Origin: a virus
Reading direction: 5' to 3' (one strand)
Virus record (IMG/VR): IMGVR_UViG_3300042557_001513
Coordinates: 1 to 52,980 of that record
DNA: 52,980 nt
Below are positions 6,171-41,193 of this stretch, piece by piece. Each line of letters opens with the position of its first letter. Within the stretch, counting starts at the first letter, position 1. The position numbers and the translations under genes were made by a program. The notes beneath the pieces were generated by a model. That model saw only the letters and a program-made list of their open reading frames with translations. It was not told where the DNA came from and did no database searches.

Positions 6171-6188
6171 TTTCATCGGGTTTAGTCT

Positions 6189-6260: not shown

Positions 6261-6843
6261 GTTTGTCATTGAGCCAGCACCACGAGGGGAAAGTGTAACC
6301 CTCGCTGACCTTCTGGGCCACATCCTGCGGCAACCAGATCTTCGCCTTGATCGCGCAACCGCAGACGCCGCATTGGTTGAGCCGTGAAGCATGTGCCGTG
6401 GTCCGTGCACCGATCAGCTTGAAGAGCCATTCGGCCAAACCCTTGCACCGCCAGCATCCCTTGACCGTTGTGTTCAGGGGACATGAGGCACAGAGCGCGG
6501 CCCGGCGTTCGGCTTCGGTCTGATCGACAAGGCCCCTCCCCGCGAGTGCGGAGACCGCGGCTTGGATGAAACGCTTAACATCGTCCATCGTGAAGTGGGT
6601 CTTGAGTGCGTAGTCACCCTCGATGACGTGACTACAACTCTCGCTGCCGACCGGAAGCTGGGCACAGACAAAGTCTTGGATGTCGGCCGAGGGATCGCCC
6701 ACGGCAATGCCATTGGCCTCGCGATGGGAGGTCACCTTCTTGACCAGTTCCCGCAAGGTCGAAGCGGCAAACTCGAAGCCCGTTTCCGGTTGGACGTAAC
6801 GCCAACCGCCGGGCGGGGTCACGCTGGTATCGGTTACTATCAT
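6223..6843 (-). CDS. Cys-rich (probable zinc-binding) phage protein
   Basis: A 206-residue protein. The N-terminus (GGWRYVQPETGFEF) and the centre (FTMDDVKRFIQAAVSAL) resemble a conserved phage family of unknown role found near structural genes. Residues 115-175 carry three Cys clusters (CASCPLN, GCWRCKG, CGVCGCAIKAKIWLP), a likely zinc-binding ribbon, and a final PSWCWLN. The last 11 residues are encoded on the strand opposite the tRNA-Glu, so they may be a recent extension. Its start overlaps the stop of the giant gene by ATGA, making it the last gene of the minus-strand unit. Confidence 0.65.
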   Translation of the reverse strand: MIVTDTSVTPPGGWRYVQPETGFEFAASTLRELVKKVTSHREANGIAVGDPSADIQDFVCAQLPVGSESCSHVIEGDYALKTHFTMDDVKRFIQAAVSALAGRGLVDQTEAERRAALCASCPLNTTVKGCWRCKGLAEWLFKLIGARTTAHASRLNQCGVCGCAIKAKIWLPQDVAQKVSEGYTFPSWCWLNDKPLSTGIEPVSQP

Positions 6844-9800
6844 CGATCGGCGAGGATTTCGCGGGGGGCGGCCGAGCGGCGGGCTTGGTTGTAGGCCGAG
6901 ATGCGGTCGCTCTTACCGCGGGCGCGAACCAAGTCGAGGCTCTGCTCGCTCGCGTTGTAGGGTTTGTAGATTCCGGTGGTCACCATCTTGATGGTGTCGC
7001 CGCCGAGACCTCCGTCGCGGAGGATCGCTTTGGCCCGCTGCACGGGCACCCCGAGGCGGATGGCGGCGAGGTAGTCCCTGCGGATTGAGTCGATCAGGCT
7101 ACGGCGGGCGGCATTGGAACGCTCGTATCCATCGACCACATCGCCGGCCGAGCGGGTGCCTTGGGTGGTGAATTCGCGATTGAAGAGGGACGAAGCATCG
7201 CGTATCTCGCGCATGAAGCGTGAAGACTTGAACTGAAGGGCCTGCTGCGCGTCGACCGAGGAGACACGCTGACCAGCCACTACGCTGCCGATTTCGTTGA
7301 AGAGGTTATAGGCGCGACCCGTTTCGCTTTCGATGCCGAAGGCGGCTTTACCGATCCGCTCGACGCTGTTCACGGTGCCGGGGATGAAGGGATCGTAGAA
7401 GATCTTGCGGGCCACGCTCAGACCGATATTCGCTCCGGTGTCCTGCGGGTTGTAGACCTGACGGCCGGCCGCGTCACGGTTACGCATCACATCCATGATT
7501 GCTCCGGAGAAGATCTGCTCGCTCGTAAAAGGATCGAGAGCCTGGCGCACCATGTCCATCGTGCCTTTGAGGAGAATATCGTCGGCGCTGTCGGCGTTAC
7601 GCAGCGATCGCATGAACGCATACAGAGGCTTTTTGAAATACTCGTAGGGATCGAGGAAGCTAACATCGACGAAGTCGACCTCACCATTCTCCTTACGGAA
7701 GAGGAGAAGCTGGCTGTTCTTCTGCCAGTCGGGCAAGAAGCGGCGGAGGTCTTCCTCATCCTCTCCGGAGATGCCCGCCATTGCCATCGAAGCGGAACCC
7801 ACCGCAAGGGGAAGAAAAGCGGCGGTCGTCATACCACGGACACGCTTCCAGCCGATCGCTTCGAGTTCCTTGTTGCCCGTAGCCCGGCCCTCCATGATTT
7901 CTTGGCGGGCCAGCTTTTGCAGATTGTAAGTGGTGCGGATGACTTCGCTCGTGAAGGTCACGAACGGCGCGATGAAGGGGAACTTCTTGAGATCCTGCAC
8001 GATGGATGGGGCCAGCGAGTAGGTCCAGTGGATGTCACGGGCGATCTCCGCGGCTTTCTCTTTGACCTTGTTATCGTCCCAGTCGGGATAGGCTTGGCGG
8101 TATTTGTCCTGCTCGGCCTCGTAGATCATCACCTTGAACCAATCGTCACCGGAGGAGTAAGTGCGGACGGCAAAGTCGGTCACTTTCTTGAAAGGCTCCC
8201 CGACTTTATTCCAAACATAGTCACCCCAATCAGGGCTTCCGGCGCGGCGGCTGGCCGTGAGGAGATCTTCAAGGAGTCCGGTGGTGATCGACTCACCGAC
8301 AATGCCGCGACTAATATAGTCGTCGATTTTGGTCCGCCACTCGGCACGGCTCATGTTGCGGTATTTGCCGAATGTGTTGGCCAAGACGGTGTCATTAGAA
8401 TTTTTGAACCTCTGCCAGAAGTCGCTGCCCGGGGCGATATCACCCAGACCCAAGTTACCCGTCGCCACCAAGTTGAGGTAGTTACCCAAGTAGTTACGGA
8501 TCTGGGACGCCACCGATCCGACCGTCTTGGTCGCCATCGAGATGCCCGTCAGCTTCATGGCCGAGCGCAGCCACCAGTAATGCTCCTCGGCTCCCCCGAC
8601 GGGGAACATCTTGAAGAGACCCTCGGCCAGCATCGGGTGGGCATACATGCCGCCGAGCGGTGTCAGTGAAGGGTTCTTCTCGGTCGAGATCCGGACGTAG
8701 CCTGGAGGATGGCGGGTGTCGTCGGGATTGTTCTCACGACTCCAGAGCCAGCCTTCTTCAATACCGATGTCGCGCAGTTCCTTGAGGAAGTTATCGTTGG
8801 CGATGACGCTGGAGAGCTTCATCACCGTCTTGGCATAGTTGACGGTCGGATCTTCGTAGCGTCCCCAGAGGGCTTGGATTTCCGGCGCGATGTTGCCGCG
8901 CTGGTAGAACATGCTGAGATTCTTCTGCCCTGGAATACGACCGGAGAGCACTTCGATGGTCGGGGCTTCTTGCCCCACGGCGAGATAGCCTTCGAGGAGG
9001 TTCTCCACTTCATCTTCGGTCACCGAGTCATTGGCCATCACCAAAGCATCCTCACGGGATAGCGTGCGCCCGTCCTCGGCGGCAGTGGCGATAAGCTCAG
9101 TTGTTTTGTCTTTGACCAGGCTGCTGCTGATGTATTTGCGGGCCGCGTCCATGACCTTCGGGTCTTTACGCACGCGGTCGGCCCACTGCGGATCGTCAAA
9201 GATCGCGTAGCTGCGATTCAGGTAAGTGCCGAGGGCTTCGTCGACCGTGATCGCCAAGTCACCATTGACCAAGCCCTCATTCGGCAGACGGCGCGATAGC
9301 GATTCGATGTGCGCCGACATCTCGCGGATCGTCGCAGCAAGTTCCTCTGGCAACTGGGCCAAGGCTTGCGTCTGTTTGTTCTGCTTAAAGTTGCGGCGGT
9401 TGTCGCGGATATACTGGTCGCGTTTCTTGGCCGCGGCGTTGGTCTGTCCGTTCAACCGCATCCGCTCGATCTCAGCGATCTGCTCCGAGGTCAACGGGTT
9501 GTCCAAGTTACCAAGAGCCGTGTTGATCGTTTCCACTGGCGGTGTCTGGCCCTTGTAGAATTTCTTCATCTGACGCTCCAAGAGGCGCGAGAGATCTTCG
9601 ATGGTCGCGACATCGACCTTGATCGCCATCCGGCTTGAGCGGTAGAGGTCACCGGCTTTCTTATCGAGAAGCTCATCGACGGCGAACATGCCGCCCTGGG
9701 TGATCGTGCCCTGGATCCGGTTTCCGTCCTTGTCTGTTTTAGTGCCTAAGTTTGTCGGTATCTTCTTGGTGGCTGAACGCCAGACACGACCACGTGCTCG

Positions 9801-12800
9801 GCTCTCCATTGCCACCGCAGGCCGCTCCAGCATAGTGCTATCGAGAATAGCAACGGCTTGTGAATCGCCGCCGACACCTTCTACTTCGTTGACATAATTG
9901 ATCGCTCCGATCGCGTAAGTCTTCAGCAACTCACGAATCTGACTCAGCTTTTCACGATTCTTGTAAGTCGGGGACTGGAGCATGAACTCTCCGACATTGC
10001 CGTCGAGCCCGACATACTCGTCTTCAAACTGCACGCGATTAAGATCTGCCATCAGGGCTTTTTCATGGGCGCTGCTAAGATCGTCCCAAGTCTCAGCGAG
10101 TTCGATGGCGTCCTCTTTATTGATGAGACCTTTGCTGACAAGTTCCACAAGCAAAGCGTCCGCATGTTCCCAAGACATGTCGGTGTCTACGTCTTCTGTA
10201 TAAAATTTGTCCGTGGAATCTTTAACCGCAAACGAGGACATCTGATCCTTGATCGCTTCTTTCGAAACCCATTCGGCTTGAGTCCTTGCGCCGACATGAA
10301 AGCCCATAGCGCCACGATCAAACCTCACAGTCTCGGGGGTCAGGACAGAGGGACCAGCGTGATACAGAACACGACTCCGTGCCCGGCTCTCTAATGTAGT
10401 TGTATCATTGAAAAGACGGGCAACATCCTGAGTTATGTTTTCGTCAAAGTTAACTGCAATCTGGTTGTTACCGTTTCTAAATACTCTGGCTACAGCCCCT
10501 CCTCGGAATCCGGCGTTTTCGATAAATCTTTTGAGTGCTGGAAGTGTCCCAAACTCAGTCCGCTCGTCGTTGGCAATGACCAAATACTTTTTACCAGAAA
10601 CTTGGTCTTCAACTTGAGATGCGCGTTCTTTCATCGAAGCTACTAGCTTCGCAGTGTCCAGCACTACATCCCCGTCAGCGTTGGTTATGGTGTTTAGTTT
10701 ATGGTATTCTTTGGGCTGTAAGATGTTCGGAAGTTCTGGGTCCGGAACCACTACAGACTGGCTTCCGCGTGCCCGGCCCTCTGCACCCTGAACCGTGTCG
10801 CGTGCAGCTTGCTGCGGTGTTGCGTTGTTATTACGCCAGACCAACGCGGGATCGACAAAATTGAATCCATTGTCTTGAGCCCACTGGACGAACTGGGGCT
10901 CGGTCATACTGCGTGCCGCATCGCGCACCCGCTTGGCTGATGCGGCGGGACTACGTCGGGCAAATCTTTCCGCGATGGCTTGGCGCTGCTCGGTCGTGCC
11001 TTCCAGATTGCGAGCTTCGATCTCGCGGTTGATGAAGTTTTCCGCCTCGTTGAGAAGCTCCATCTCCATGTTGATCGCCGAGCGACGAACCTCCGGCATG
11101 GTGTATTCGCCCAAGTTCACGTCACCGCCGGCATTGGAGAAATTAATGATCCAACTGTCCTTGAAGGCTTTGGCTAGAGGCGAGTTGGGGTCGGCTTTGA
11201 TTCCGGCGATAAGTTCGACCAAGGCATTCCACGCATCGCGCACCGCATTGAGGAGCGAGACACGACCCTTGGCTTGGCCGAAGCCGAGACGCACCATCAG
11301 GTCGGCCAGTTCGGGGCTGCTGGAAACTTCGGTCGTGAACTCTTCCAAGTTGGTCAGCCCAGCATAGACGCGGTTTGCTCCCTCCGGATCGTTCTGCGGC
11401 AGTGCCCGGTTATCGAGGTCTTTGGCCAGCCGCGTGTAGTCGGCGTCAGTCAACGTAGTGGGGACATCCAAGCGGAGGTCACGCGCTGCGGCGACCAGGG
11501 CTTCACGGCGCAGGGCTTCGAGGCGATTGAGCGCGTCCTGTTCGACGCGGTTGAGCTTGATCTCGCCGCGCACTTTCTTGCTCGTCGTGACGTGGCTCAA
11601 CTCGTGCAAGAACGTGTTCACCGCGCTGTCGCGGTCGTGGAGACTATCCAGGTTAAGGGCGATGTCGTAGGCGTTGCTGCCGTCGCGGGTGAATAGTCCC
11701 GACCACGACGAATCGCTACCGAAGCGGGCGATCTGCACACCCACACCGTTGAGATCGACACCGCGGCGAGCCAGCTTGGCAAACTCACGGGCACGCAGCT
11801 TCATGTCCTGTGAGAAGCGGCCCTGCTGCACCGTCTCAAGGAAGGTGCCGACATCGGCAAAGGCACGGGCGCGGAGTAGCTCGCCGACATTCTCACGCAC
11901 TGCACGCACCTCCTCGGCCGAGCGGCGGGCCGCGTTCGATCCGGCCAGAAGCTCGGAGGCCGAGAGTCCGGCCAAGTCGGCAAACGAGTTCGGCGTTTCA
12001 ACGAAGACAACCTTCCCCGCTTTGACAGCGGCGGGGTTGCTGCGGGTGACGATCGACTGGTAAGCGCGGTCGATCTCGGCGTCGGTCAGAGCAACCGACT
12101 CCGCATCGGTCAGGCGACCGAAGGACTGGATGAAGATTCGCTTGGCTCGTCGGCTGAGTTGCCGGACGGTTGTCGGCGCAAGAGATGCTCGAACGCTAGG
12201 TCTTCCATCGCCGCGAACACCGGCTCCCGTAGCAGTTCCGGCTCCTCCGCGATCAGGTCCGCCCACACTTTCGGGTCGCCCTTGCGTAGTCGTAGCTGCT
12301 GTTCCTCGGGCAAGCGAGCGATTAGCTCCGGATAGCTCTCGTCCAACTGGACTGCCGCCAGAAATGTTTGCATCGGCGCGAACGGCCGATCCTCGATTGG
12401 TTCTTGGTCTTCCTTCATTGATTTGGTTTTCAAGTTCTGCACCCCCTTCTTTGATGTATCGTCTGATTAGTTTGGCCCGGCGTTTCTGGGCCTGAGTAAG
12501 GTCACTCTTTTGACCACGGATGGGCCTTCCGCGTTCATCTAAAATTTGTCTTTCAAACCGGAATATCAAATCCCGGTCGCCGTCAGAGAGGTTGTAGAAT
12601 CGCTCTCTGGCCGCTTCAAAGTCCTCTGAAAGGGGCTCGTCTGGCTGGGATACCACTGCGGCATCTTCATTGACCTCAGTCTCGGCCGTCTCCGGCAGCA
12701 CGACGCGGTCGGAAGACTGCACTGTCTCGGCCTGCTCGGCACGGGCCAGTTCACCCTCGGCGAACTCTTGGGTCGTTGCGGGCTCTTGAGCCCCTTGGCG

Positions 12801-15800
12801 TCCCGCCCTCTCCCGTGCCTCGCGGTCGGTGATAAGCTCGGTCTGCTGGTTCATCTCACGGCGGCGGATCGAACGGTCGGCCGTCTTCACCGCATTCATC
12901 GCCGTGTAGATCGGATTGAATTTACCGAGATTCCTGAAGGTTTGTGCGATAGATCGCAGAGCGGCACGGGCATTCAGACTCTCGGCCACCTGATCTCCCG
13001 TGAGACTTTGAGGTTGTTGTGCCTCCCACCGAGCTACGACTTGCTCTATGGCATTATTGATATCGGACTCATTACTACGCTCGGCTTCACTGATGATCTG
13101 TTCTTCAATTTTATCTGCCCGATCCGGATCGATACCCCCTTGTTCCAACTCAAGTGCGGACATCCTCTCTGGATTGATCTCGATCCCTTTGATTTTCTTC
13201 GTGGCCTTTTGTCTGGCGGCTTGAAGCCGGGACTGCCGTATAGGGGCCAGTGCCTCCAGAAACATTTTAGCCAGCGTAGCAGTTCCTTCCGCCGGTTGTT
13301 TGCCGCGCCGTTTTTTCCGGTTGGCAAAAGTTTTCACCACACGATTTTGCGCCTCGAACCGTGCCTCATCCTTCACGTTCTCCGGAAGATCTGAGCGGTT
13401 GATAAAGTCGGTCACACGGGCCAACGCATCCTCATAGAAAGAATATTCGACGGGGTTGAGCTCGGCTTGCACCAACTCCCATTCCTTGAGTTGTTCCTCC
13501 GGTAAGGTCTGGCGCTCCTTGCGACCGCGCACAGCAGCCTCACTTCGGGCGATACGCTCCGGTGAGTTCTTGTAGATATTGTCGAAAAGCAAAAGACCAC
13601 GACGGCGGGCATTTGCACCACGCGAAGTCAGCGGAATGTCGACGCTGAAGTCTTTGGGGGACTTCAGACCGCGCCGATAAGTCCGACCACCAAAGTTGAC
13701 CCCCGTGACGATGTTCTTACGTCCACCCTTCTTATCGCTGACCGCTTGGACTTCGATGTCCTTGTTCAAGGTCGCGAGTTGGTCGTCCGGCACCACAACC
13801 TCAAGACCTTGGTTCATCTGGCGAACCGTGTTGAACGGCGTGTTGGTGAACTTACCCCGAATCGAAGGAATGATCGTCCCCTTCTCACCCTTCTTGTTGA
13901 ACCAGCTTACCTCAATCGGGAACGCTTCAGTCCCCAGCCCGTCGCTGAACGTCGACTCCTGCGCCCCACGAGTCCCCGTGTAAGGCGAGCCAAGCACACG
14001 CTCGGCTTGCTGCTTGGTCGGGTTCGGTCCGAGGGCATCGGCAAAGGCTTGTTCCAGCGGGGTCTTGGTATTCTCCGGCGGCGGGGCAAGCGTAACGCGA
14101 TTAAATTGGGATGGCTTGAGTTCAAGCTGGCTGACTTCACCGACAAACTCTCCGGAACTAAGAGGAACAGTGCCCATGCGAAACACGGCATTCCCATTCT
14201 TTCTGCGGCCCATGAACCTCGCACCTTTACCTTCGTAGCCGATCAAACCCACCCGTTGATTAAGTTCCAGACCATCAACAAACGCTGCTGCTTGGGTCAG
14301 AGGCCGAGCCAGGTTTTCTTGTTTCTGCTTCTGCTCTTCTTCACGGGCTGTTTCCAATTCCTTCCGCCGCGCATTGTAAAGGTTCTGTAGGACGAGCCTC
14401 TCTTGTTCCCCGCCAATTCGTGACTCTTTGATTTGTCCGAGTCGTTCTCCCAATAAACCACCGGGCTGTAATGCGCCGGAAGCTGCATACTCTTGCCGCA
14501 ACATCTGGTCTCTTAGGAGGAAAGCCCCTTCTTCGCTGCGGCGAAGAGCCTCTTCTTCACTTAGAGTCTCATCAATTACCGCTGCCGATTCGGCTGCTGG
14601 TTTAACCTCGGAAACAGGATCTTGAGCCGCGGGTTCCGGCGCTGGGTCTGCCAGTGCCGCCGAAACGACTTCATCTTCAGCCAACTGCTGACGAAGCGCC
14701 TGACCCCCAAGCGGGCTCTGCCGCAGCCTGGTGGCTTCCGTCTCCTCGTCGAGTTCGGCGGGCTCACCGAGTTCATCTTCCTCGACCACCTCTTCTTGTT
14801 GAGTCGGAAGCTCTGTCGTCAGCTTACCCTCGGAAAGATCACTTAGAGCCGTCTCGGCTTTAGCCACGAGCATGGCCGCACGGCCTTCCTCATCGGCTTC
14901 CGGAACCACAATCTGAAGCGTAGCCCCACTCTCGTCCTGCATCGTCGGCGCACCGCGCACGATTTCACGATCCGGATTGACGACAGCCCACAAGCCCGTC
15001 GAGCTACGTCGCATCTGCAAGTCATCAACTTGGATCGCATCGGACCACTCGCCTGTTAGCGTTGGTTCAGCCGGAGCCTGATCTGCCTGACGAGGAGGCA
15101 ACTGCCGCAACTTCTCCGCCGTCTGCGGAGCCAGTGCTTCGATGACACTGCCAGCACCGCCCAAGGCACCGCCGACCGTGGCTCCGGCAACCGCGGCGAT
15201 CCGACGTTCACGCTCGGCCTCGGGGGTGCCGACAACCTCTTCGATCGTGCGGTTAGGATCAGCCGCACCGAGAGCGGCTTGCTCCAATCCCGTCTGCACA
15301 TACTCGGTGCCGCCTTCAAGCGCCGAAGTGGCCGGCAAACCAACACCAACGCTTCGGGCCACACGGCCGGGGAACGAGATCCCCGTGGCCGTCTCGACAC
15401 CCTCCATCGCCGCCCGCCCCGTCCTCGTGAAAGGCTTGAGAAATTTTCCGGCAATAAAGACTTCACCGAGCGTATCGAGTGCAGCCCCCGGAACAGCAAA
15501 AGCTGCCGCTGCCAAGGCATCCCCTTCACCCGTCTCTTGGGCGATCTGTCCGAAGCTCCCGCCCGCGATCTGCCCGAAGTTGGCGAGGTAAGCACCCGCG
15601 ATACCACCACGGGCTGCGGCTTGCCCTTCCCGCATGAGCGCACCTTGGGCCACCTGCTCGGCGACCTCTTTGGCCGCTTGTTTGGTTACCTCACCACGAG
15701 CCGTAATCTCTGCCGCTTTGTTGGCAAACTCCCGTCCGGCCATCCCTGCCGCCACCCGCTTGCCAACTTCATTGGCCACGATCCGCTTGGCCAAGGTCTT

Positions 15801-16304
15801 ACCAGCAAATCCGCCGATGCCGCCACCGACCGCTGAAGCGAGCAACTGCGGAATCTGCTCACCCAAGAGCCCTGCCGCGTAGGTCGCCGCATCCCCTGCC
15901 CCCTCGATCTCCTCGAAGGGATCCTGCACCGTAGCTTGATTCAGCGCGGCCTCCTCCATCTTACGGACGTAATTATCCAGCCCGAACTCCTCAATACCCT
16001 CGACGCCAAGCGCCTGCCCCATGAGCCCTACCAACCCGTAGCCGAGACCTTGGGTCTGGTCGACACCGCGATCTAGGCCGGTCGAGAACTCTTCGCGAAG
16101 GGTGCGCTCCGGAGTCAAAGAAACGCCAATGCCTTGGTTTAGTTTGGCTAACTCCCGACTCCACCGTCGGAAATCATCATCTGGCTCTGACTCAGTCCGT
16201 TGTGTGCTTCGCTGCCCAGTGAGCACATCCACGGGGACATTCTGTAGGTCTAGGTCGACCGAAGTGTCCTGAAAGTCGCTCTGAATTTCATCATACCAAG
16301 CCAT
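6840..16304 (-). CDS. giant polyvalent virion protein (metallopeptidase, ADP-ribosyltransferase-like and large polyvalent domains)
   Basis: A 3154-residue protein. In order: an acidic N-terminus; Ala/Gly-rich membrane-prone helices at about 145-395; long charged coiled-coil parts; a zincin HELSH at about 1567-1571; and an ADP-ribosyltransferase-like domain at about 1976-2165 with VLYHAG near its start, GFHVGARTQAEW in the middle and YVNEVEGVGGDS near its end. A large domain at about 2450-2870 follows (IQALWGRYEDP, IRNYLGNYLNLV, PFIAPFVTFTSEVIRTTYN), typical of giant polyvalent phage proteins. RAR-type linkers occur at 1844, 1974 and 2169, the last two flanking the ADP-ribosyltransferase part. 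Such proteins are packaged and injected at infection; that role is inferred. ATG 16304 follows a GTAATAAC element and has no Shine-Dalgarno. Confidence 0.75.
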   Translation of the reverse strand: MAWYDEIQSDFQDTSVDLDLQNVPVDVLTGQRSTQRTESEPDDDFRRWSRELAKLNQGIGVSLTPERTLREEFSTGLDRGVDQTQGLGYGLVGLMGQALGVEGIEEFGLDNYVRKMEEAALNQATVQDPFEEIEGAGDAATYAAGLLGEQIPQLLASAVGGGIGGFAGKTLAKRIVANEVGKRVAAGMAGREFANKAAEITARGEVTKQAAKEVAEQVAQGALMREGQAAARGGIAGAYLANFGQIAGGSFGQIAQETGEGDALAAAAFAVPGAALDTLGEVFIAGKFLKPFTRTGRAAMEGVETATGISFPGRVARSVGVGLPATSALEGGTEYVQTGLEQAALGAADPNRTIEEVVGTPEAERERRIAAVAGATVGGALGGAGSVIEALAPQTAEKLRQLPPRQADQAPAEPTLTGEWSDAIQVDDLQMRRSSTGLWAVVNPDREIVRGAPTMQDESGATLQIVVPEADEEGRAAMLVAKAETALSDLSEGKLTTELPTQQEEVVEEDELGEPAELDEETEATRLRQSPLGGQALRQQLAEDEVVSAALADPAPEPAAQDPVSEVKPAAESAAVIDETLSEEEALRRSEEGAFLLRDQMLRQEYAASGALQPGGLLGERLGQIKESRIGGEQERLVLQNLYNARRKELETAREEEQKQKQENLARPLTQAAAFVDGLELNQRVGLIGYEGKGARFMGRRKNGNAVFRMGTVPLSSGEFVGEVSQLELKPSQFNRVTLAPPPENTKTPLEQAFADALGPNPTKQQAERVLGSPYTGTRGAQESTFSDGLGTEAFPIEVSWFNKKGEKGTIIPSIRGKFTNTPFNTVRQMNQGLEVVVPDDQLATLNKDIEVQAVSDKKGGRKNIVTGVNFGGRTYRRGLKSPKDFSVDIPLTSRGANARRRGLLLFDNIYKNSPERIARSEAAVRGRKERQTLPEEQLKEWELVQAELNPVEYSFYEDALARVTDFINRSDLPENVKDEARFEAQNRVVKTFANRKKRRGKQPAEGTATLAKMFLEALAPIRQSRLQAARQKATKKIKGIEINPERMSALELEQGGIDPDRADKIEEQIISEAERSNESDINNAIEQVVARWEAQQPQSLTGDQVAESLNARAALRSIAQTFRNLGKFNPIYTAMNAVKTADRSIRRREMNQQTELITDREARERAGRQGAQEPATTQEFAEGELARAEQAETVQSSDRVVLPETAETEVNEDAAVVSQPDEPLSEDFEAARERFYNLSDGDRDLIFRFERQILDERGRPIRGQKSDLTQAQKRRAKLIRRYIKEGGAELENQINEGRPRTNRGSAVRADANISGGSPVGRELSGANRSLARGTAATTTQGRPESVGGPDRGGAGTATGAGVRGDGRPSVRASLAPTTVRQLSRRAKRIFIQSFGRLTDAESVALTDAEIDRAYQSIVTRSNPAAVKAGKVVFVETPNSFADLAGLSASELLAGSNAARRSAEEVRAVRENVGELLRARAFADVGTFLETVQQGRFSQDMKLRAREFAKLARRGVDLNGVGVQIARFGSDSSWSGLFTRDGSNAYDIALNLDSLHDRDSAVNTFLHELSHVTTSKKVRGEIKLNRVEQDALNRLEALRREALVAAARDLRLDVPTTLTDADYTRLAKDLDNRALPQNDPEGANRVYAGLTNLEEFTTEVSSSPELADLMVRLGFGQAKGRVSLLNAVRDAWNALVELIAGIKADPNSPLAKAFKDSWIINFSNAGGDVNLGEYTMPEVRRSAINMEMELLNEAENFINREIEARNLEGTTEQRQAIAERFARRSPAASAKRVRDAARSMTEPQFVQWAQDNGFNFVDPALVWRNNNATPQQAARDTVQGAEGRARGSQSVVVPDPELPNILQPKEYHKLNTITNADGDVVLDTAKLVASMKERASQVEDQVSGKKYLVIANDERTEFGTLPALKRFIENAGFRGGAVARVFRNGNNQIAVNFDENITQDVARLFNDTTTLESRARSRVLYHAGPSVLTPETVRFDRGAMGFHVGARTQAEWVSKEAIKDQMSSFAVKDSTDKFYTEDVDTDMSWEHADALLVELVSKGLINKEDAIELAETWDDLSSAHEKALMADLNRVQFEDEYVGLDGNVGEFMLQSPTYKNREKLSQIRELLKTYAIGAINYVNEVEGVGGDSQAVAILDSTMLERPAVAMESRARGRVWRSATKKIPTNLGTKTDKDGNRIQGTITQGGMFAVDELLDKKAGDLYRSSRMAIKVDVATIEDLSRLLERQMKKFYKGQTPPVETINTALGNLDNPLTSEQIAEIERMRLNGQTNAAAKKRDQYIRDNRRNFKQNKQTQALAQLPEELAATIREMSAHIESLSRRLPNEGLVNGDLAITVDEALGTYLNRSYAIFDDPQWADRVRKDPKVMDAARKYISSSLVKDKTTELIATAAEDGRTLSREDALVMANDSVTEDEVENLLEGYLAVGQEAPTIEVLSGRIPGQKNLSMFYQRGNIAPEIQALWGRYEDPTVNYAKTVMKLSSVIANDNFLKELRDIGIEEGWLWSRENNPDDTRHPPGYVRISTEKNPSLTPLGGMYAHPMLAEGLFKMFPVGGAEEHYWWLRSAMKLTGISMATKTVGSVASQIRNYLGNYLNLVATGNLGLGDIAPGSDFWQRFKNSNDTVLANTFGKYRNMSRAEWRTKIDDYISRGIVGESITTGLLEDLLTASRRAGSPDWGDYVWNKVGEPFKKVTDFAVRTYSSGDDWFKVMIYEAEQDKYRQAYPDWDDNKVKEKAAEIARDIHWTYSLAPSIVQDLKKFPFIAPFVTFTSEVIRTTYNLQKLARQEIMEGRATGNKELEAIGWKRVRGMTTAAFLPLAVGSASMAMAGISGEDEEDLRRFLPDWQKNSQLLLFRKENGEVDFVDVSFLDPYEYFKKPLYAFMRSLRNADSADDILLKGTMDMVRQALDPFTSEQIFSGAIMDVMRNRDAAGRQVYNPQDTGANIGLSVARKIFYDPFIPGTVNSVERIGKAAFGIESETGRAYNLFNEIGSVVAGQRVSSVDAQQALQFKSSRFMREIRDASSLFNREFTTQGTRSAGDVVDGYERSNAARRSLIDSIRRDYLAAIRLGVPVQRAKAILRDGGLGGDTIKMVTTGIYKPYNASEQSLDLVRARGKSDRISAYNQARRSAAPREILADR

Positions 16305-19954: not shown

Positions 19955-19961
19955 TTACGCG

Positions 19962-19969
19962 GTTATTAC
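19962..19969 (-). promoter_or_regulatory. GTAATAAC leader element, copy 5
   Basis: Minus-strand GTAATAACCGCGTAAATG: the element is separated from ATG 19954 by only CGCGTAA-like bases. It shares the extension CCGCGTAA with copy 6. Confidence 0.72.
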
Positions 19970-19973
19970 TATA

Positions 19974-22316
19974 TCACCGAAACTGGTAAACGCGACGGGT
20001 GTGGGCGGCTCCACGGTTTCCAGTGAAGTTTTGTTGGGCAATCTGGCTGGCCAGCATCTCCTTGGCCTTCTCGATATGGGGGGTGATCTGGTCGCCGCCC
20101 AAGAGAATGCCCTTGGTCGCCTCGTAGATCGCTTGGTAGTTACGCAGATACATCGCGTCCGCGTCGGCGGTGTGGGGAACGAAGCGGCGTTTGGCCAAGA
20201 TCCGGACCACCGGAACCACGTTCGGCAGCGTAATCCAATACTTCCGCTTGAGGAAACCATCGGCCGGATCGATCGCCTCGCCGCGGTCGACCGCGCCTTC
20301 ACGCCAACTATCATCAGTCTCACGGTATCCGGTGCCGCCACGGATCCACTCATTGAGCCGATCGTGCACGGGCTTGGGATCGCCGTCGAAAGACATATAG
20401 AGGATCGTCTCGACCTCACGGGGCAGGAAAAACTCACCCGTGGTAGAGACCGAAAGGGTATACTCGGCCACGGTGCCGACCCACTTACCGACAAACATCA
20501 GTTGCTCCTCGGCCGCGTTGACCATGCGCTTCACGGCGGAGTCCGAGAGTCGGTAAGCCTCGGGCAGTTCCAGCCCGATCCGGCCCCAGTGGTAGCCAAA
20601 GGTATCATTGGCCGAAGCGAGCAACGCTTCACGGGTCGCACGGCGGGCGGCTTCAATCGCGGCCATTACGTCACGCTCGATCAGGGCCAAGGCTTGCTGC
20701 TTGAGAGCGGTCGCCACATCCGGCTGTCCGGCCGAGGTCGCCAGATAGCTTTCGACTAAGATCTTCCGCTGCTCGTAGGTCGGCGTCGGCGCGGGGCCGT
20801 TGTAGTCCTCGCGGCGTTGGAGGAAATCTTGCTGCGCCCCGATCTCGGTTGAAGCCTGGGACAAGTAAGTGGTCAAACGGTCGGTCGGGATCGTGACCCC
20901 GTTGGGCAGTTCATTGTGCAGTTTGCCTTCGTCGCCGGCCGCAGCCCGACGGGCCGCTTCGACTTGGGCCATGAGGTCGCGTTCGATTAACGCTTGGCCT
21001 TCGGCTTTGAGCGCCGACGCGGCTTCGATCTGACCAGCCCCGGACGCGACATAGCTTTCCACGAATTTTTTCCGCACTTCATAGGTAAAAGGATTTGGTT
21101 TGGTTCCGCTCGAATAGTTCTCACGACGGGCCAAGAAGTCCCAGTGAGCGCCAGCCTCGGCGGCGGCTTGGCTTAAATACTCGTTGATGCGGGCCGTGGC
21201 GATCCGCACACCCTCGGGAAGTTCATTGTGCAGACGCCCCGCTTCCCCAGCCGTGGCACGGCGAGCGGCTTCGACATTCTGCATCAAGTCGCGCTCGATG
21301 ATGGAGAATGCTTCCTGCTTCTTGGCTGCGGACACATCGACGGTTCCACTCAAAGTGGCGATGTAAGATTCGACCAAGGGCTTGAGCACCTCGTAAGCGA
21401 ACGGATTGGGTTTCACTCCACTGGAGTAGTCCTCACGGCGGGCCAGAAAGTCGTAGTGTGTCCCCGCCTCGGTCGCCGCTTGGGACAAATAGGTGGTCAA
21501 ACGTGCCGTGGGAATTTGCAGCCCGCCCGGCAGTTCGTTGTGAAGACGGCCTTCATCGCCAAGAACAGTTTTCCTGCTGCGCTCCACCGACGAAACAATG
21601 TTTCGCTCGATCAGTTCAAAAGCCTGACTTTTCAGCCCAGATCCGTCGCCCCCGTTATCGGTGATGATGTTCGAGAGGGCCAGCAATCGAACAATCTCAT
21701 CGGGAAGCAGACTTTCAAATTGTTCCGTATCTCCCGTCAGGGCATTGTAAGTTATCGTATTTCGATCAAGATTTTCTCGGCGGGAAACAAAGTTATGTTG
21801 GTCAATCGCCTGCTGGTAGGCGCGGTTAACGATACTTCTTATCCGAGTTACCGGCATCCGATATTGGATAAGAGTTTCTAATCCAACCCGACCGACCATA
21901 CCCCCAAAAGTGTTTTGCCCGTTGGCTACCAACAGTTCATAGGCCGTCCTGCGCTCGCGTTCGACATCGTTGGTGATATTGCGTTCGAGGTAGGAATACG
22001 CCTTGGTTTCCAATCCCGTGGCCAATTCAAGCTGGTTGTTTTCCTCGCGCCACAGTGCCAAGATCATGTTCTTGGTTGCGTCCAAATTGTCGAGGGTAAG
22101 ACTGCCCGTCAGCGGATTTCCTGTCGTGCCCCCAGCTTGCCATACTAACTCTGTTCGTGCGCTTTCCTCCCGACGCGAAACAAAGTTGTAGTGGTCAATC
22201 AGCCGCCTCTGCGCTTCGTCGATCCTCTGGTCGATACGCGCTGTGTCGGTTACCGCCACGCCGTTGTCGACGTAGGGTGCGAGCAAAGTTCTGGCGGTGA
22301 GAAATGTAGTCGCCAT
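19974..22316 (-). CDS. adaptor/tail-tube-like virion protein with five internal repeats
   Basis: A 780-residue protein. A motif of the type H-x-[DN]-F-[LV]-x-R-R-E recurs at about residues 43, 175, 290, 392 and 498. Each is set in a unit of about 105-135 residues that also contains LIERD and, in three copies, LHNELP; units 3-5 are closest to each other. The C-terminal third (from about 590: FFLPREVETILYMSFDGDPKPV, LPNVVPVVRILAKRRFVPHT) resembles head-tail adaptor/tail tubular A-type proteins of podovirus-like phages. The repeats probably form a helical array in the neck or tail. It starts by one-base overlap (TAATG) with the gene before. The role is inferred from the C-terminus and position. 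Confidence 0.6.
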   Translation of the reverse strand: MATTFLTARTLLAPYVDNGVAVTDTARIDQRIDEAQRRLIDHYNFVSRREESARTELVWQAGGTTGNPLTGSLTLDNLDATKNMILALWREENNQLELATGLETKAYSYLERNITNDVERERRTAYELLVANGQNTFGGMVGRVGLETLIQYRMPVTRIRSIVNRAYQQAIDQHNFVSRRENLDRNTITYNALTGDTEQFESLLPDEIVRLLALSNIITDNGGDGSGLKSQAFELIERNIVSSVERSRKTVLGDEGRLHNELPGGLQIPTARLTTYLSQAATEAGTHYDFLARREDYSSGVKPNPFAYEVLKPLVESYIATLSGTVDVSAAKKQEAFSIIERDLMQNVEAARRATAGEAGRLHNELPEGVRIATARINEYLSQAAAEAGAHWDFLARRENYSSGTKPNPFTYEVRKKFVESYVASGAGQIEAASALKAEGQALIERDLMAQVEAARRAAAGDEGKLHNELPNGVTIPTDRLTTYLSQASTEIGAQQDFLQRREDYNGPAPTPTYEQRKILVESYLATSAGQPDVATALKQQALALIERDVMAAIEAARRATREALLASANDTFGYHWGRIGLELPEAYRLSDSAVKRMVNAAEEQLMFVGKWVGTVAEYTLSVSTTGEFFLPREVETILYMSFDGDPKPVHDRLNEWIRGGTGYRETDDSWREGAVDRGEAIDPADGFLKRKYWITLPNVVPVVRILAKRRFVPHTADADAMYLRNYQAIYEATKGILLGGDQITPHIEKAKEMLASQIAQQNFTGNRGAAHTRRVYQFR

Positions 22317-24564: not shown

Positions 24565-24719
24565 TCGATCAGCAAACGGTTGCCGTCGTCGTCGATGAGG
24601 AGGTAGTATTCAGGGCTCTCCTCGATCAGGAGGAGCAGCCCGACGGGTGAACTCGACCAAGCACTGTATTCGGTCTCCAGATCGGTATCCCGGGTGAAGA
24701 TTTCTCTAAGTTCGGCCAT
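24561..24719 (-). CDS. small acidic protein
   Basis: A 52-residue acidic protein (MAELREIFTRDTDLETEY at the start, DDDGNRLLIE at the end) with a hydrophobic core stretch (PVGLLLLIEE). Its ATG shares one base with the TAA of the upstream beta-rich tail protein gene (TAATG), and its own stop lies within a GTAATAAC element, so both borders are constrained. No family is known. It may be a small structural or chaperone protein of the tail. Confidence 0.6.
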   Translation of the reverse strand: MAELREIFTRDTDLETEYSAWSSSPVGLLLLIEESPEYYLLIDDDGNRLLIE

Positions 24720-27541
24720 TACAAACTACCTCCATTGACGGCCTCGGTGAGTCGGTTTCCGTGCAACATGAGCCTTCCTAAATGGGCGCGTCCACTCCAG
24801 TTGACCCGCAAGGTGAAATCGTGCCCCAAGTAAGCAGGAACGTCGGTCGCCAAATTGGCGGTTCGTGGGGGCGCGGGGAATTTTACTTGGGGGGCATACC
24901 CTCGCTCATATCCCAACAACTGCGGGGGGTCAGGGTCGTAAGAGGTTGCTACGGTTCCTAATTCAAGCTGGGCACCCCAAAGGAACAACCCAGACAATCC
25001 GTCCCCCGCATAAGAGGTGTTTCCGGCTGAGTCAGCCAGATAAACTCTGAGGCCGTTTGACACGGCTGTGGCTGTCCAAGTCATCGAGCATCGAAACCAT
25101 CCGTCTCCCAGTGCGGTAATCGACCCGATACCTTGGTTGGTTGTCAGACTTTGACTGTAGGTTGTTCCGCTCGAAAGATCAAAACCCACACCAAACGAGT
25201 CGGAGGTCGCGGCCAAGACAAACTTGGTCTTGGGGTCAGCCTTTGCAAAAATACTCAAGGTGTAGCTTGCTGCGGTTGTCGTAAAGTTCCGACCCAACCA
25301 GTGAACACCATTAGTGGTGTCTTCCACCAAACGATCTGCATCTCTCTTAAAATTAATCGGGTTTTCGGCTGCTGCTATTTCCACGGTGGTGTTGGTTTGT
25401 GTCCATCCCGCACCGTTGATCGCCTCGGTCCACGCCAAGAGATTTTTATCCTCCAACAGAAACTCGGTCTGAAACCGCCGCTCGAACCGCTGCCAAGTGG
25501 TAAAGTTTACATAGTCATCTGGCCGATAAGCTAGTTCGCACTCGAACGGGTAGTCGTTGCCGCCGCCCAAGTCATCAAACCACAAATCGCAGCGGATCAA
25601 TTTTTTGAGACTCATATTGTCGCCAAGGTTGAAAGCCTTAGTCACGACACTTGCATTAACCCTGCGCTTCCCTTCAACTGGCGTGTCATACTCATCGTTT
25701 TTGGTGACTTCCCAGATTTCGACTCTTCGTCCGGTCTCATCCTCGTGGAAACACACCGCAAAGCACCGCGGGTCGTCGTCAAACAATCCCTGCACCAGCT
25801 TGATGACGCGAAGTCCAGTCCAGACTCCGTCGAAAACAGCCGCCGACTTTCCGCGCCCCGCGCTGGTGGACTGGAAATCCAGCACTGCTATTCCCGTATA
25901 AACGGTAGGGATAGGTTCTGCGGCAAATTGGTCGGCTTGGGTTTGATCGGTCGCACGGCGAGGAAGCTGCCTCGGCCAGCAAGTTACCAAAAGACGGTTG
26001 TCAAAACTAACCATGCTCACTTGGTCGAGCATCCAAGAAGTATCTTGTTTGAGAATAGGATCGATTTCCGCACTGACCGGCGTCAGACCATAAGTGCCTG
26101 CTTCACCGCGGGCGTTGCGGTAGGTGCGGATACCGTTGCCTTCGCGGGACCGGAAAAACAAGTCGCCGTTGACTGGGAGAATGCTGTCGCTGGTCGAGCC
26201 AATATTGTCGAAAAGGATGCGCTGGAATCCCTCGGTGTTTTTCCATCGATCGCGTGGCAAAGAGACTTGGAACGTAACTGCCCCGCGCTCGCAGAACGCG
26301 ATCAAGTCGCCCTGCCCTGTAGCCGTGTCTTGCACCGGCAAAAAGACCAAGGATTTCACTTTGCCCACGTTGCTGGCTGGCGCAAAGCTCCCACCCTCGT
26401 TGAGAAAAGTCGCCTCGGTGAATCTCAGAAGATCGCTGTCTTGACCGGCATTGAATTTTGTTACAGTGCCTCCCGCGCCGGGCGCACCCGCCGTCACGGT
26501 GACCGGGATGGAAAAAGTCGTAGCCGTTAACGATGCTGACCCCACAACATAAGTGGAATCCACAATCGAAGTGTTTTCGGCAATGGTGACCAAATCTCCG
26601 CTCGCTAAACCGTGGGGTGTCGCGGTGGTGACCACCGTGGGATTGGCCGCGGTGCAGGTAGTAATTTTGGACTCGGCAAGAAAACCACTGAAAACCAAAT
26701 CCCCCGCCAAAATTTCCGCACCTTCGTTGATCGCGACAAAAAGCCGCCCTTGGCCGTAAGCCATTTGTTTGCCGATCGGAACGACTTGAGCCCCATAGTA
26801 GCTGCTACGCCGAACCGTGTAACCATCAAAGATCCGTGGTTCGTCTTGTCCGGTCTGGATAATGAGGTATTTCTCGGCTTGCACCATGTAGACCGGAACG
26901 TCGTCGGAGATTTCGTCCAGCAAGTTGAGACGGCGGACCGATGCTTCGGCAAAATCCAAAGCCATGATCTTTCCATCGGCGACCACGACCATCAGCGTGG
27001 GGTTTCCATCGCGGGGATCTTGGTAGATGGCGACTCCCTGCACGTAAGTCGCTGCCAAAATATCTTCGCTATACCGGGTTCGGCTGGTCTTGCCGTTGAC
27101 AAAGTCATCGAGAAACGCGGCATCGATGTCTCGCCGCGCTGTAATCGTTCCGGTTACGGTTCCCGTGGCGGAGGTGGGGAAAGTAAAAGTCGTCGCGCCA
27201 GTGATGGTAATCGTGTGCGTCCCGTTGACGCCCACAGGACTAGCCCCTGCAATCGTGACTTTATCCTTGTTGTCGTAACCGTGACCTCCAGACACCGTAG
27301 CGGTGGCGACCCCACTACTGATGGTGATGGTCGCGGTTCTAACCGGCTGGGGATTCCGCCAATAATTAGCGGGGATTTCGCGAAAGCCCGGTCGGGTGCG
27401 CGGGCCGTTACCGCCCCGGAACGTCACATTGTTCGCATACCAAGCAGCTTCGTTTGGGGTCTGGGGCGGATCTTTAGAGCCGTCCATTCCTGCCGGAAGG
27501 CCGCGAAATCCGTCGATCAATCTTTCAGGGTCAGTAATCAT
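24719..27541 (-). CDS. large beta-rich tail (nozzle/tube-like) protein with carbohydrate-binding-type insert
   Basis: A 940-residue protein. The N-terminus has NEAAWYANNVTFRGG, GPRTRPGFREI, a pattern I associate with beta-propeller tail tube/nozzle proteins. Repeated beta-blade strands follow (YVQGVAIYQDPRDG, KIMALDFAEASVRRL, KYLIIQTGQDEPRIFDG). Two short Ig-like inserts (VTIAGASPVGVNGTHTI at about 95-130, GDLVTIAENTSIVDS at about 315-360) resemble fibronectin/BIG-like modules. A CBM-like domain lies at about 705-850 (LGDGWFRCSMTWTATA, SGLFLWGAQLELG), typical of phage glycan-binding inserts. Probable tail tip or adhesion component. It starts near 'gcataacaATG', a weak variant of the element. 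Confidence 0.65.
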   Translation of the reverse strand: MITDPERLIDGFRGLPAGMDGSKDPPQTPNEAAWYANNVTFRGGNGPRTRPGFREIPANYWRNPQPVRTATITISSGVATATVSGGHGYDNKDKVTIAGASPVGVNGTHTITITGATTFTFPTSATGTVTGTITARRDIDAAFLDDFVNGKTSRTRYSEDILAATYVQGVAIYQDPRDGNPTLMVVVADGKIMALDFAEASVRRLNLLDEISDDVPVYMVQAEKYLIIQTGQDEPRIFDGYTVRRSSYYGAQVVPIGKQMAYGQGRLFVAINEGAEILAGDLVFSGFLAESKITTCTAANPTVVTTATPHGLASGDLVTIAENTSIVDSTYVVGSASLTATTFSIPVTVTAGAPGAGGTVTKFNAGQDSDLLRFTEATFLNEGGSFAPASNVGKVKSLVFLPVQDTATGQGDLIAFCERGAVTFQVSLPRDRWKNTEGFQRILFDNIGSTSDSILPVNGDLFFRSREGNGIRTYRNARGEAGTYGLTPVSAEIDPILKQDTSWMLDQVSMVSFDNRLLVTCWPRQLPRRATDQTQADQFAAEPIPTVYTGIAVLDFQSTSAGRGKSAAVFDGVWTGLRVIKLVQGLFDDDPRCFAVCFHEDETGRRVEIWEVTKNDEYDTPVEGKRRVNASVVTKAFNLGDNMSLKKLIRCDLWFDDLGGGNDYPFECELAYRPDDYVNFTTWQRFERRFQTEFLLEDKNLLAWTEAINGAGWTQTNTTVEIAAAENPINFKRDADRLVEDTTNGVHWLGRNFTTTAASYTLSIFAKADPKTKFVLAATSDSFGVGFDLSSGTTYSQSLTTNQGIGSITALGDGWFRCSMTWTATAVSNGLRVYLADSAGNTSYAGDGLSGLFLWGAQLELGTVATSYDPDPPQLLGYERGYAPQVKFPAPPRTANLATDVPAYLGHDFTLRVNWSGRAHLGRLMLHGNRLTEAVNGGSL

Positions 27542-29959: not shown

Positions 29960-30124
29960 TTATTCTGTTTTTGCCTCTTCGGCGATTTCTGGTTTGGGCT
30001 CGCTCACTTCAACTTTTTGAATGAACGCGCTGAGTTGGGCCGCAGCAAATTCCAACAGCGTCTTGTTGCCGGACACTTTGGCTGCGGCATAGGCTTCGAT
30101 TAGTTCAGCTAGTTTTTCTTTCAT
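29960..30124 (-). CDS. small helical protein
   Basis: A 54-residue protein, mostly one helical hairpin (KLAELIEAYAAAKVSGNKTL and onward) and an acidic C-terminal tail (PKPEIAEEAKTE). Its ATG overlaps the TGA of the upstream gene (ATGA). Its TAA is followed by CATTATG of the next gene, so both ends are packed. No function is recognised. It is short enough to be missed by length-filtered gene calling. Confidence 0.55.
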   Translation of the reverse strand: MKEKLAELIEAYAAAKVSGNKTLLEFAAAQLSAFIQKVEVSEPKPEIAEEAKTE

Positions 30125-30423
30125 TGGTTGCGGTTAGCCAGCCACGTCCTCATAGGCGCGACACAGTTTAATATAGCAGCATAAGCCTCGGCGACCTCGG
30201 GAACTTCATTAATCGCCAGCCACAAATCTCCCGTCGCAAGTTGCTCGTTGAAAGCCGAAGGTCCGATCTCCCGAGTATCTGCATTGTAGGGGGCGAACTC
30301 GGCCTCCATTTTCCCGCTGTCGACGTTCTCACTTTCAAGGGTCAACCGCTTGATCCAAAGATGCGGGAAGGTTTTTTCCGGTGCTGCCGGAAAAATAATG
30401 GGGTTATCTGCGGGGATGTTCAT
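30121..30423 (-). CDS. hypothetical protein, paralogue of the 35014-35325 product
   Basis: A 100-residue protein. It shares spaced residues with the 103-residue product at 35014-35325: K-x-F near residue 18, DSG near 36, EVPE[VL]A-A-x-A near 74 and WLA or YLA at the end. The beta-rich N-terminal part and helical C-terminus suggest a small fold used twice in this phage. It lies just after the capsid gene terminator. Probably structural, but unproven. Confidence 0.5.
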   Translation of the reverse strand: MNIPADNPIIFPAAPEKTFPHLWIKRLTLESENVDSGKMEAEFAPYNADTREIGPSAFNEQLATGDLWLAINEVPEVAEAYAAILNCVAPMRTWLANRNQ

Positions 30424-38880: not shown

Positions 38881-41193
38881 TCACATCGGTTGTGCCGGAC
38901 CAATCTTCGCAGCGGTCTGGGCATCTTTAAGCGCAAGATCCTGCATGACCTTGGCTTGCTTGGTCTGCATGTCGACTTGGTGTTTCTCGATCTGCATCTG
39001 GAGCTTCGCTCGGCGTTCGGCCAAGTCGGCTTGGGCCTTCGGACTTAGCATCTGGGCATCGGCCAACTGACGCTCCATGTCGGCAATCCTTGCTTGCTCG
39101 GCTTCGATGGCGCGAGCTTGCTCGGCCTCTTGGGCTTTGGCCTGCTGCTCGGCGGCGGCTTGCAACTCGTCGGCGAGTCGCTGGCCGGAAGCGTTCAACT
39201 GCTGGAACCGCTGGCGCATGAGCCCGATCTGGTCTTGGCGAGCCACATCGGGAGCGAGCAACTGCAAGTGTTCGCCCAAGTGCGGCAACATCGTCTGGTA
39301 AGCGGCGAGCGCGGCGGCAGGGTCGGCCTGACCTTGCGAGATCGCTTGGTCGAGACCGTCGAGCGCCGTCAGGTGACGGCTGGCGTGGATGAAGTGGTTC
39401 TCGCCGGAGGAGACGGGCAGCGCCGTGCCAGCCGACATCGTGGCGTTCTCCAAGAGCGCGATCTTGTCGTCGATCGGTGTCCGCAGCGTGGTCGCGGGCG
39501 AGGGCAAGTAGCGGTCGACCACTTCCTGCCCAAAGCGGGCGGCAATGCGGTCGCGCAAGAGATTGACCCGACCCATCTCGTCCAAGGAACCGAAGATGGA
39601 CATCGTCTCATCGATCGCCGCACTCCGCATCCCAGGGCTTCCATAACCAATGGCGCGAACGGGCTCGACCGTGGAGAAACGATGGATCGCTTCGGTCGGC
39701 ACTCCGCGGGCAATACAACGCTTCTTGAAGTCGACGGCGTCACGACCGCCGGGTTCATTGGCGGCATAATCACGCGACACTAAACGGCGGTATGCCTCAC
39801 GAAGAAGACGTTTCCACGGGTGGTAGAAAAGATTGATCGCCGCGGCCCCGAGCACGGCTTCTTGCTGCAACTGGGCGCGGACCTCATACGCAGTGCGGCT
39901 TTGACCATCCGGAGTGATCGATCGCGACTGGTAGCCGATCGTCCGGTTTTGCATATTCATGGTCAGGTCGTTCAAGACCGGCATGAGGTTCTGGTTGTAG
40001 TTGGGGATCGCCTTCTCGACGATCTTCAGCCCAGGAGGAAAGAGTGCGTAGGGGCCGTAATACGAAAGCGTGAGGTCTTCGAGGGCGCGGGACCCATTGT
40101 CGCCGGGCTGGACGATCAGGGCCGAGGAGAGCAACGCACCATCGACCATGCCGCAGCGCAGACGATTCAAAAGCTGAATGTGTGGATAAACTTTATAGCC
40201 CAAACCTCTGATGCCGTGATACGTGCCGTTGCCGACGCCATAGCAAAAAGTAACGAAGCAGTTGGTCGGGGCGGCGAAGCGATTCGGGCGCTTGAAGAGG
40301 AAGTCCTCCTCTTTGGCGTTCTCGTCCGAACCGATCGGATCCTTGAGGAACATGAGGTGGCTGACCTTGCCGTCGAACTCGCGCACCCACATGTGGACGA
40401 CATGGACTTTCTTGCCACGGCTGTTGCCGTAGAGGAGGTCGTTGTTTTTAAGTTCGACCTCCAGCTTCTCCCACTCGCCGGCCTCTTGGAACGAACTGTC
40501 GCGGCAAGCGCGGATCAACGCCTGTTTCACCATCTTGACGTTCCACCCGAGGTCTTTGGCCACGGCGGGGTCTTCGATGAATTTGTAAAGCTGGTGGGCC
40601 TGATACTCGCGATCAACCGTGGCGACCTCGATCTCCCATTCGGAAGCGCGTGTTCCACGTGGCAACCGGAACTCGGAGAGCCCGGCCACACGCCAACGCC
40701 AATCAACCTCGTCCTCAAAATAACAAACCCCGACGCCGTGCGAGACGAACTGGTCGGCAAGCATCTGGTGATTGAACTCGAATTCCTGCCACTCTTTGAG
40801 GGTCCGCGTGAATTCTTCGGCCAGGATGCGCTCCCACTCGACCTTCTGCTCGGGGGAACCGAAGTCGATCGAGATGCGGGCCAAGACATCGACGCTTGAT
40901 GTGAGGTCGTAGTATCCGGCGAGGGCTTGCTCTTTCAGGGCGGAGGCTTCGCCGAAGTCGAGATTCGTGCGCTCGCCTTGGCCCATTTCGATCAGGTCTT
41001 GCTGATTGAAGGGGGCGGCACCATTGAACATCGCGTCAACCAGGGCGCGGTTTTTACTGGAGCCTTGGTCGCTGTCCTTGATCGCTTTGTAGATGGAGCG
41101 GGCGCTGTTTACATTATCCACGCGCATCTTGGGGGCGCGGCCGTTCTCTTCAAGGCCAAGGAGTTCGAGGGGTGCTAGTTCGGAATTTGTCAT
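38881..41193 (-). CDS. portal protein
   Basis: A 770-residue protein lying between the terminase-side genes and the fibre and lysis block. It has a helical C-terminal tail (about 680-760: AEQQAKAQEAEQARAIEAEQ) and a core with NRTIGYQSRSITPDGQSRTAYEV, LQQEAVLGAAAINLFYHPW and RRLVSRDYA, as in podovirus-type portals. The N-terminal part contains LAGYYDLTSSVDVLARI. The size matches large podovirus-like portals. It would form the dodecameric DNA gate. It starts by ATGA overlap with the glycosyltransferase-like gene. Confidence 0.8.
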   Translation of the reverse strand: MTNSELAPLELLGLEENGRAPKMRVDNVNSARSIYKAIKDSDQGSSKNRALVDAMFNGAAPFNQQDLIEMGQGERTNLDFGEASALKEQALAGYYDLTSSVDVLARISIDFGSPEQKVEWERILAEEFTRTLKEWQEFEFNHQMLADQFVSHGVGVCYFEDEVDWRWRVAGLSEFRLPRGTRASEWEIEVATVDREYQAHQLYKFIEDPAVAKDLGWNVKMVKQALIRACRDSSFQEAGEWEKLEVELKNNDLLYGNSRGKKVHVVHMWVREFDGKVSHLMFLKDPIGSDENAKEEDFLFKRPNRFAAPTNCFVTFCYGVGNGTYHGIRGLGYKVYPHIQLLNRLRCGMVDGALLSSALIVQPGDNGSRALEDLTLSYYGPYALFPPGLKIVEKAIPNYNQNLMPVLNDLTMNMQNRTIGYQSRSITPDGQSRTAYEVRAQLQQEAVLGAAAINLFYHPWKRLLREAYRRLVSRDYAANEPGGRDAVDFKKRCIARGVPTEAIHRFSTVEPVRAIGYGSPGMRSAAIDETMSIFGSLDEMGRVNLLRDRIAARFGQEVVDRYLPSPATTLRTPIDDKIALLENATMSAGTALPVSSGENHFIHASRHLTALDGLDQAISQGQADPAAALAAYQTMLPHLGEHLQLLAPDVARQDQIGLMRQRFQQLNASGQRLADELQAAAEQQAKAQEAEQARAIEAEQARIADMERQLADAQMLSPKAQADLAERRAKLQMQIEKHQVDMQTKQAKVMQDLALKDAQTAAKIGPAQPM

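Follow-up and report, generated by a model that had tools for sequence, protein, structure and literature searches.

A viral tail gene with a variable number of tandem, predicted head-to-tail adaptor units

The window analysed here, the whole 52,980-nt stretch of DNA that makes up positions 1 to 52,980 of IMG/VR virus record IMGVR_UViG_3300042557_001513, contains a minus-strand gene whose 780-aa product carries internal repeats around an R-R-E core, which raises the question of what these repeats are and what a chain that holds several of them might build in the virion. The gene and its parts are as follows.

19974..22316, minus strand: whole gene, 780 aa; five adaptor-like units and a predicted C-terminal adaptor domain
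21924..22277, minus strand: unit 1 (aa 14-131), fixed N-terminal type; unit profile score 105 bits
21540..21881, minus strand: unit 2 (aa 146-259), fixed N-terminal type; rows for P22 gp4 align here (Z 5.5-5.6)
21228..21539, minus strand: unit 3 (aa 260-363), 104-aa middle type, the copy number of which varies among relatives
20916..21227, minus strand: unit 4 (aa 364-467), modelled separately as aa 354-462 (pLDDT 93.1, pTM 0.85)
20616..20915, minus strand: unit 5 (aa 468-567), constant last unit, with FLQRRE (FVQRRE in a few relatives)
19977..20615, minus strand: putative C-terminal adaptor domain (aa 568-780), from structure model and fold comparison
20187..20471, minus strand: beta insert of the C-terminal domain (aa 616-710), the putative equivalent of a fibre dock (named after excerpts of PMC9509320 and PMC6702177)
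19977..20030, minus strand: C-terminal tail (aa 763-780), disordered in the model yet conserved

Repeat units of the 780-aa protein

The 780-aa open reading frame begins with ATG, and its repeats are real. The unit profile, which was partly built from the window protein's own units, finds five units in it with 97-154 bits each, the number given in the preliminary description of this locus. The motif on which that description relied, H-x-[DN]-F-[LV]-x-R-R-E, is literally present in only 3 of the 5 places (aa 42, 287 and 391) and is recovered in all five (aa 42, 173, 287, 391 and 495) when its first position is relaxed to [HQ]; the spacings of 131, 114, 104 and 104 residues agree with the approximately 105-135 residues proposed. 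Among 20,000 shuffles of the window protein, F[LV]xRRE occurred once in 37 and twice in 0. Comparison of the units shows that those most alike are indeed units 3-5, as had been noticed (58-63% protein identity and 58-62% DNA identity, vs. 21-29% protein identity for pairs that involve unit 1 or unit 2). The recent duplication that had been read from this similarity is rejected for the window gene on the same DNA identities. Newer copies do exist elsewhere: units 6 and 7 of one relative (L112), the most alike neighbours among 13 arrays compared, share 86% DNA identity and are thus younger than any duplication in the window. The C-terminal part of the window protein differs from the repeat units by profile, model and fold comparison.

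Predicted folds and sequence links among the domains

The AlphaFold2 model of the whole window protein has a mean pLDDT of 85.7 and a pTM of only 0.43, so that the arrangement of the units relative to each other is uncertain. In this model, the C-terminal domain forms a four-helix up-down bundle (helices 573-583, 592-609, 727-739 and 741-761) with a beta sheet of six strands within 616-710, between the second and third helix. Comparison of residues 559-775 with solved structures (VIA-align) yielded matches to the SU10 tail protein (7z47_B; Z 12.2, 191 residues, rmsd 4.3), cyanophage A4 (Z 11.7), Pa223 (11.6), N4 (9.0) and T7 (6r21_N, 6.1), as well as to the crAss001 tail barrel (7qoj_F, Z 9.3; 7qog_B, 8.1), and the six-strand part falls inside the range aligned to the phage adaptors. 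The different, adaptor-like C-terminal domain suspected at the outset is hence well supported as a predicted podovirus head-to-tail adaptor fold, with a beta fibre dock between the helices. Residues 763-780, which are disordered in the model, are conserved among close relatives and constitute a candidate portal-embracing segment.

A repeated fold is present in the whole-chain and single-unit models alike. Each of units 3-5 is modelled as a short helix, a long helix, a helix and a long helix, with slight variations in units 1 and 2, and the internal units have no fibre dock or beta part. When unit 4 was modelled alone from 57 natural units (pLDDT 93.1, pTM 0.85), its best match was SU10 chain 7z47_A (Z 9.0; 100 of 109 residues, spanning residues 12-226 of that chain), which corresponds to the adaptor bundle minus the dock, followed by the Mu neck (Z 7.1) and the P74-26 neck (6.8); the top three rows all belong to adaptors or necks of phages, the best other row has a Z of 5.1, and the unit Z scores are modest, given the tool's warning that values below about 13 for helical bundles may reflect a common arrangement. 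In the whole-chain comparison, the repeats matched the phage 812 neck (Z 7.0), the T4 gp13/gp14 neck (6.9) and P22 gp4 (5.6), with unrelated helical rows mixed among them at Z 4.8-5.7. A Foldseek search with the single unit produced no significant match, and the absence of a family from such fold lists does not exclude that family. The reading of the repeat units as dockless adaptor bundles is well supported by these models, and we are highly confident that both the C-terminal domain and the units are adaptor domains.

The C-terminal domain and the units are also connected through sequence profiles. The C-domain profile matches the internal units in two pieces (positions ~2-50 and 151-207), several of which are weak when taken singly; the pieces correspond to alpha0-alpha1 and alpha2-alpha3, and the missing part is the beta insert. 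The N-terminal domain of a distant group of relatives (565-591 aa) aligns with the C-domain (hhalign probability 98.2, E 5.9e-14, 200 columns) and with the unit profile (93.9%, 48 columns), whereas the direct comparison of the unit profile with the C-domain is weak (29.7%). Taken together, the profile links among units, N-domain and C-domain make it likely that the units and the adaptor domain share common descent, beyond a resemblance of folds, and these links, combined with the predicted folds of the single unit and the C-domain, indicate that the window protein consists of adaptor domains arrayed in tandem.

The window protein had no Pfam family at E 1 and only three weak rows, of function not known, in PHROG. 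No match to it or to one short relative was found by tblastn of phage records, a PDB profile search with the array retrieved no significant solved structure, and hhalign with the annotated adaptor of phage vB_Pun_Y3 gave no match (0.1%). Adaptors are reported to lack sequence homology (excerpt of PMC6702177). None of the other open reading frames of the window significantly matched the unit or C-domain profile; a further, unrecognised adaptor gene may be present besides the array.

Genomic neighbours and unit number among relatives

Three other genes of the window bear on the setting of the array.

24719..27541, minus strand: tail protein of 940 aa, matched in 24 of 24 relatives; candidate for the nozzle or hub
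38881..41193, minus strand: 770-aa portal candidate, so assigned from size, position and conservation
6840..16304, minus strand: 3154-aa ejection-protein candidate, the C-terminal part of which matches phage proteins

The C-terminal part of the 3154-aa protein resembles virion proteins of Cellulophaga phages phi13:2, phi18:3 and phi19:3 and also matches a protein of Pseudoalteromonas phage vB_Pun_Y3; together with a terminase-like protein, fibre proteins (one with an S74 domain) and a Gly-rich 624-aa protein, it fits a short-tailed phage. A PDB profile search with the portal candidate returned no match, and species genomes scanned with the array and with the portal candidate, which bears on the host or prophage question, contained no relative. 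The 940-aa protein carries, at about aa 699-871, a gene-transfer-agent head-spike-fibre domain (solved: 6tb9) that is unmatched in many relatives, in which the homologous frames comprise about 700-780 aa. The 577-aa protein at 16341-18074 is matched by relatives over only its initial ~100-180 residues, except for one additional short match, often by a separate open reading frame of ~150 aa, and is probably an anchor with exchangeable receptor-binding parts. The window further includes an 804-aa open reading frame (49762-52176) whose first half matches helicase families and whose second half matches an exonuclease family, two frames of ~100 aa (30121-30423 and 35014-35325) that resemble paralogues in that either profile finds the same two frames of one relative (L127), a tRNA-Glu (CTC) gene at 6188-6261, and an integrase-like protein at 46661-47887.

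The scan of viral contigs retrieved 59 loci with the protein, 68 with the profile (many on the same contigs) and 42 with the C-terminal domain. The repeat number in relatives, which the preliminary description had named as a check, is not constant: the 31 complete, unsplit arrays with strong units (a unit being counted if above 40 bits), the window included, contain 3 to 9 units, namely three units in 4 arrays, four in 1, five in 7, six in 4, seven in 4, eight in 3 and nine in 8. Within the subgroup of the window, protein lengths increase in steps of ~104 residues (675, 779-786, 883-884, 987-988, 1092 and 1196). The distant 565-591-aa group has three domains, of which the N-terminal and the C-terminal one carry a beta insert and the middle one does not; one relative (L040) has about six degenerate units of ~134 residues each, and in another (L030) the frame of the array is broken after the fourth unit, with the remainder in a second open reading frame. 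The window, L008 and L014 possess five, seven and nine units, respectively, and their portal candidates are 100% identical in protein sequence (rounded). A tree of the arrays, from which L030, the split array L115 and partial genes were omitted, implies at least 12 changes of repeat number; we do not rely on this count because 13 of the 21 inner branches lack resolution and recombination occurs within the gene.

Comparison of closely related arrays indicates that the number of units is altered through recombination within the array. The third open reading frames of L180 and L181, with flanks that are ~97% identical, differ by exactly one 312-nt unit, with 349 of the 352 remaining residues the same and a 9-nt direct repeat at the junction. 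Between L015 (eight units) and L016 (seven), the last unit is 100% identical and the C-domain almost fully shared, whereas the middle units are mostly 62-70% identical. The window and L008 are 89% identical in 19955-21554 vs. about 69% in the rest of the gene and the 940-aa gene. For units 3-5 of the window compared to L001, dN is 0.024 and dS 0.389, as expected under strong purifying selection; the corresponding rows for units 1-2 (window vs. L001 and L002) were omitted because a one-residue shift misaligns them.

In L141 (the contig of which is also that of L115), L180, L181 and L182, the array is distributed over three consecutive open reading frames. In 8 of 8 junctions, the stop codon and the next ATG are 0-5 nt apart, and the open frames overlap by 13-46 nt in 6 of the 8 and by 136 and 220 nt in the other two. 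Every cut falls inside a unit, after its second main helix and before its third, such that neighbouring products carry complementary parts of one domain. These features suggest coupled translation rather than sequencing error, and the split units may be completed between chains, as would be expected of interlocked rings. A programmed frameshift is not favoured in this lineage, given the distance between stop and ATG at all junctions.

Proposed architecture and alternatives

We consider it rather probable that the array forms a stacked barrel, with one ring per unit and the number of units setting the length of the barrel. Under this model, one chain would be a tandem series of head-to-tail adaptor domains. 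The last of these, with helix bundle as well as fibre dock, would be a complete adaptor and most likely binds the portal through its conserved tail; the internal units would consist of that four-helix bundle alone. With one chain for every portal subunit, twelve in all, the units would follow one another as successive rings below the portal down to the nozzle, with the C-terminal domain at the portal and the N-terminal unit at the nozzle, an orientation that fits the conserved C-terminal and variable N-terminal sides of the gene in the comparison of the window with L008. The barrel would then have about six rings in the window and four to ten in relatives; at ~4.6 nm per ring (23/5, borrowed from crAss001), this would correspond to ~28 nm and 18-46 nm, respectively, although dockless rings are perhaps shorter. 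The added ring envisaged in the preliminary description is accordingly the best reading of the array, with the stacking itself as the conjectural part. Recombination within the array changes the unit number and may thereby change barrel length. The fuller proposal, that the rings are covalently linked and that the gene's unit number is the length of the tail barrel, altered ring by ring through recombination and with no tape-measure protein, we regard as possible but slightly less probable than its negation. Co-variation with a tape measure is not observed: among 13 of 24 searched records (those with an apparently complete 3154-like frame, near-duplicates left out), repeat number does not correlate with the length of the open frame homologous to the 3154-aa protein (Spearman 0.07, p = 0.82) or with that of the 940-aa homologue (Spearman 0.06, p = 0.85); the barrel-length hypothesis needs no such co-variation.

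The joint variation of the N-terminal side of the array with the neighbouring tail genes (window vs. L008) would also be compatible with units positioned on the outside, where they would form a sleeve or a platform for tail fibres, their number following the fibres carried, the more so as SU10 fibres bind dock and helix bundle alike (excerpt of PMC9509320); however, such a platform is unlikely, given the absence of the dock from the internal units and the strong purifying selection that acts on them. The low pTM of the whole chain and the flexibility possible in helical repeats leave some room for an elastic spacer or assembly tether in place of rings, but the units have the fold of a ring-former, and both profile and fold comparisons tie them to the adaptor at the C-terminus; we consider this reading improbable. 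Five units and a C-domain add up to six, so that two chains could fill the twelve positions of a single ring; this arrangement is very improbable, given that domain totals in the relatives range from 4 to 10, and of these 5, 7, 8, 9 and 10 do not divide twelve.

Repeat arrays in short-read contigs can collapse, and the variable unit number could in principle be an artefact of assembly. Against this, units 3-5 of the window differ by ~40% in DNA, equal numbers recur in separate contigs (seven units in L008-L010, three in L100-L103), and the unit-sized steps keep the frame, so that hardly any weight is left for an artefact.

If the stacked barrel is correct, the series of 3 to 9 adaptor units in one gene across relatives is a natural length series in which the determinant of short-tail length would be directly testable by comparing natural variants, and it would illustrate a way in which barrels of several rings could lengthen or become divided during evolution. 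A literature search, with most subscription papers and bioRxiv outside its reach, found no earlier description of a tandem adaptor array.

Among known systems, the tail barrel of crAss001 consists of five stacked dodecameric rings (R1-R5) from four paralogous adaptor-fold genes and is ~23 nm long, whereas in other podoviruses one adaptor ring has been seen (both from excerpts of PMC10172136). Its ring proteins have the same adaptor fold, with helices and beta part, as that predicted for the C-domain of the window protein (7qoj_F, Z 9.3), and a short tail lengthened by several rings below the portal would be common to both. The crAss001 rings, however, come from separate genes, whereas the window holds all its units in one; its internal units lack the beta domain, and their number varies from 3 to 9 among relatives. 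The split arrays of L141, L180, L181 and L182 approach the separate-gene arrangement with their three open reading frames, but are cut inside units. T7 gp11 combines a helix bundle with a fibre dock and embraces the portal with a segment at its C-terminus (excerpts of PMC6702177 and PMC9509320); together with SU10 gp11, it resembles the predicted C-domain of the window protein in the helix bundle and the dock between helices, and the conserved C-terminal tail of the window protein may correspond to that segment. These adaptors are single domains of ~200 residues that form one ring, compared to which a protein of 780 aa and six domains is the unusual expansion it had been taken for. The adaptors of P22, Sf6, HK97 and SPP1 are described as lacking the dock (in excerpts of PMC9509320 and PMC6702177). 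P22 gp4, the Mu and P74-26 necks and HK97-type connectors share with the internal units of the window a dockless helix bundle, but have one domain per protein and form no tandem array.
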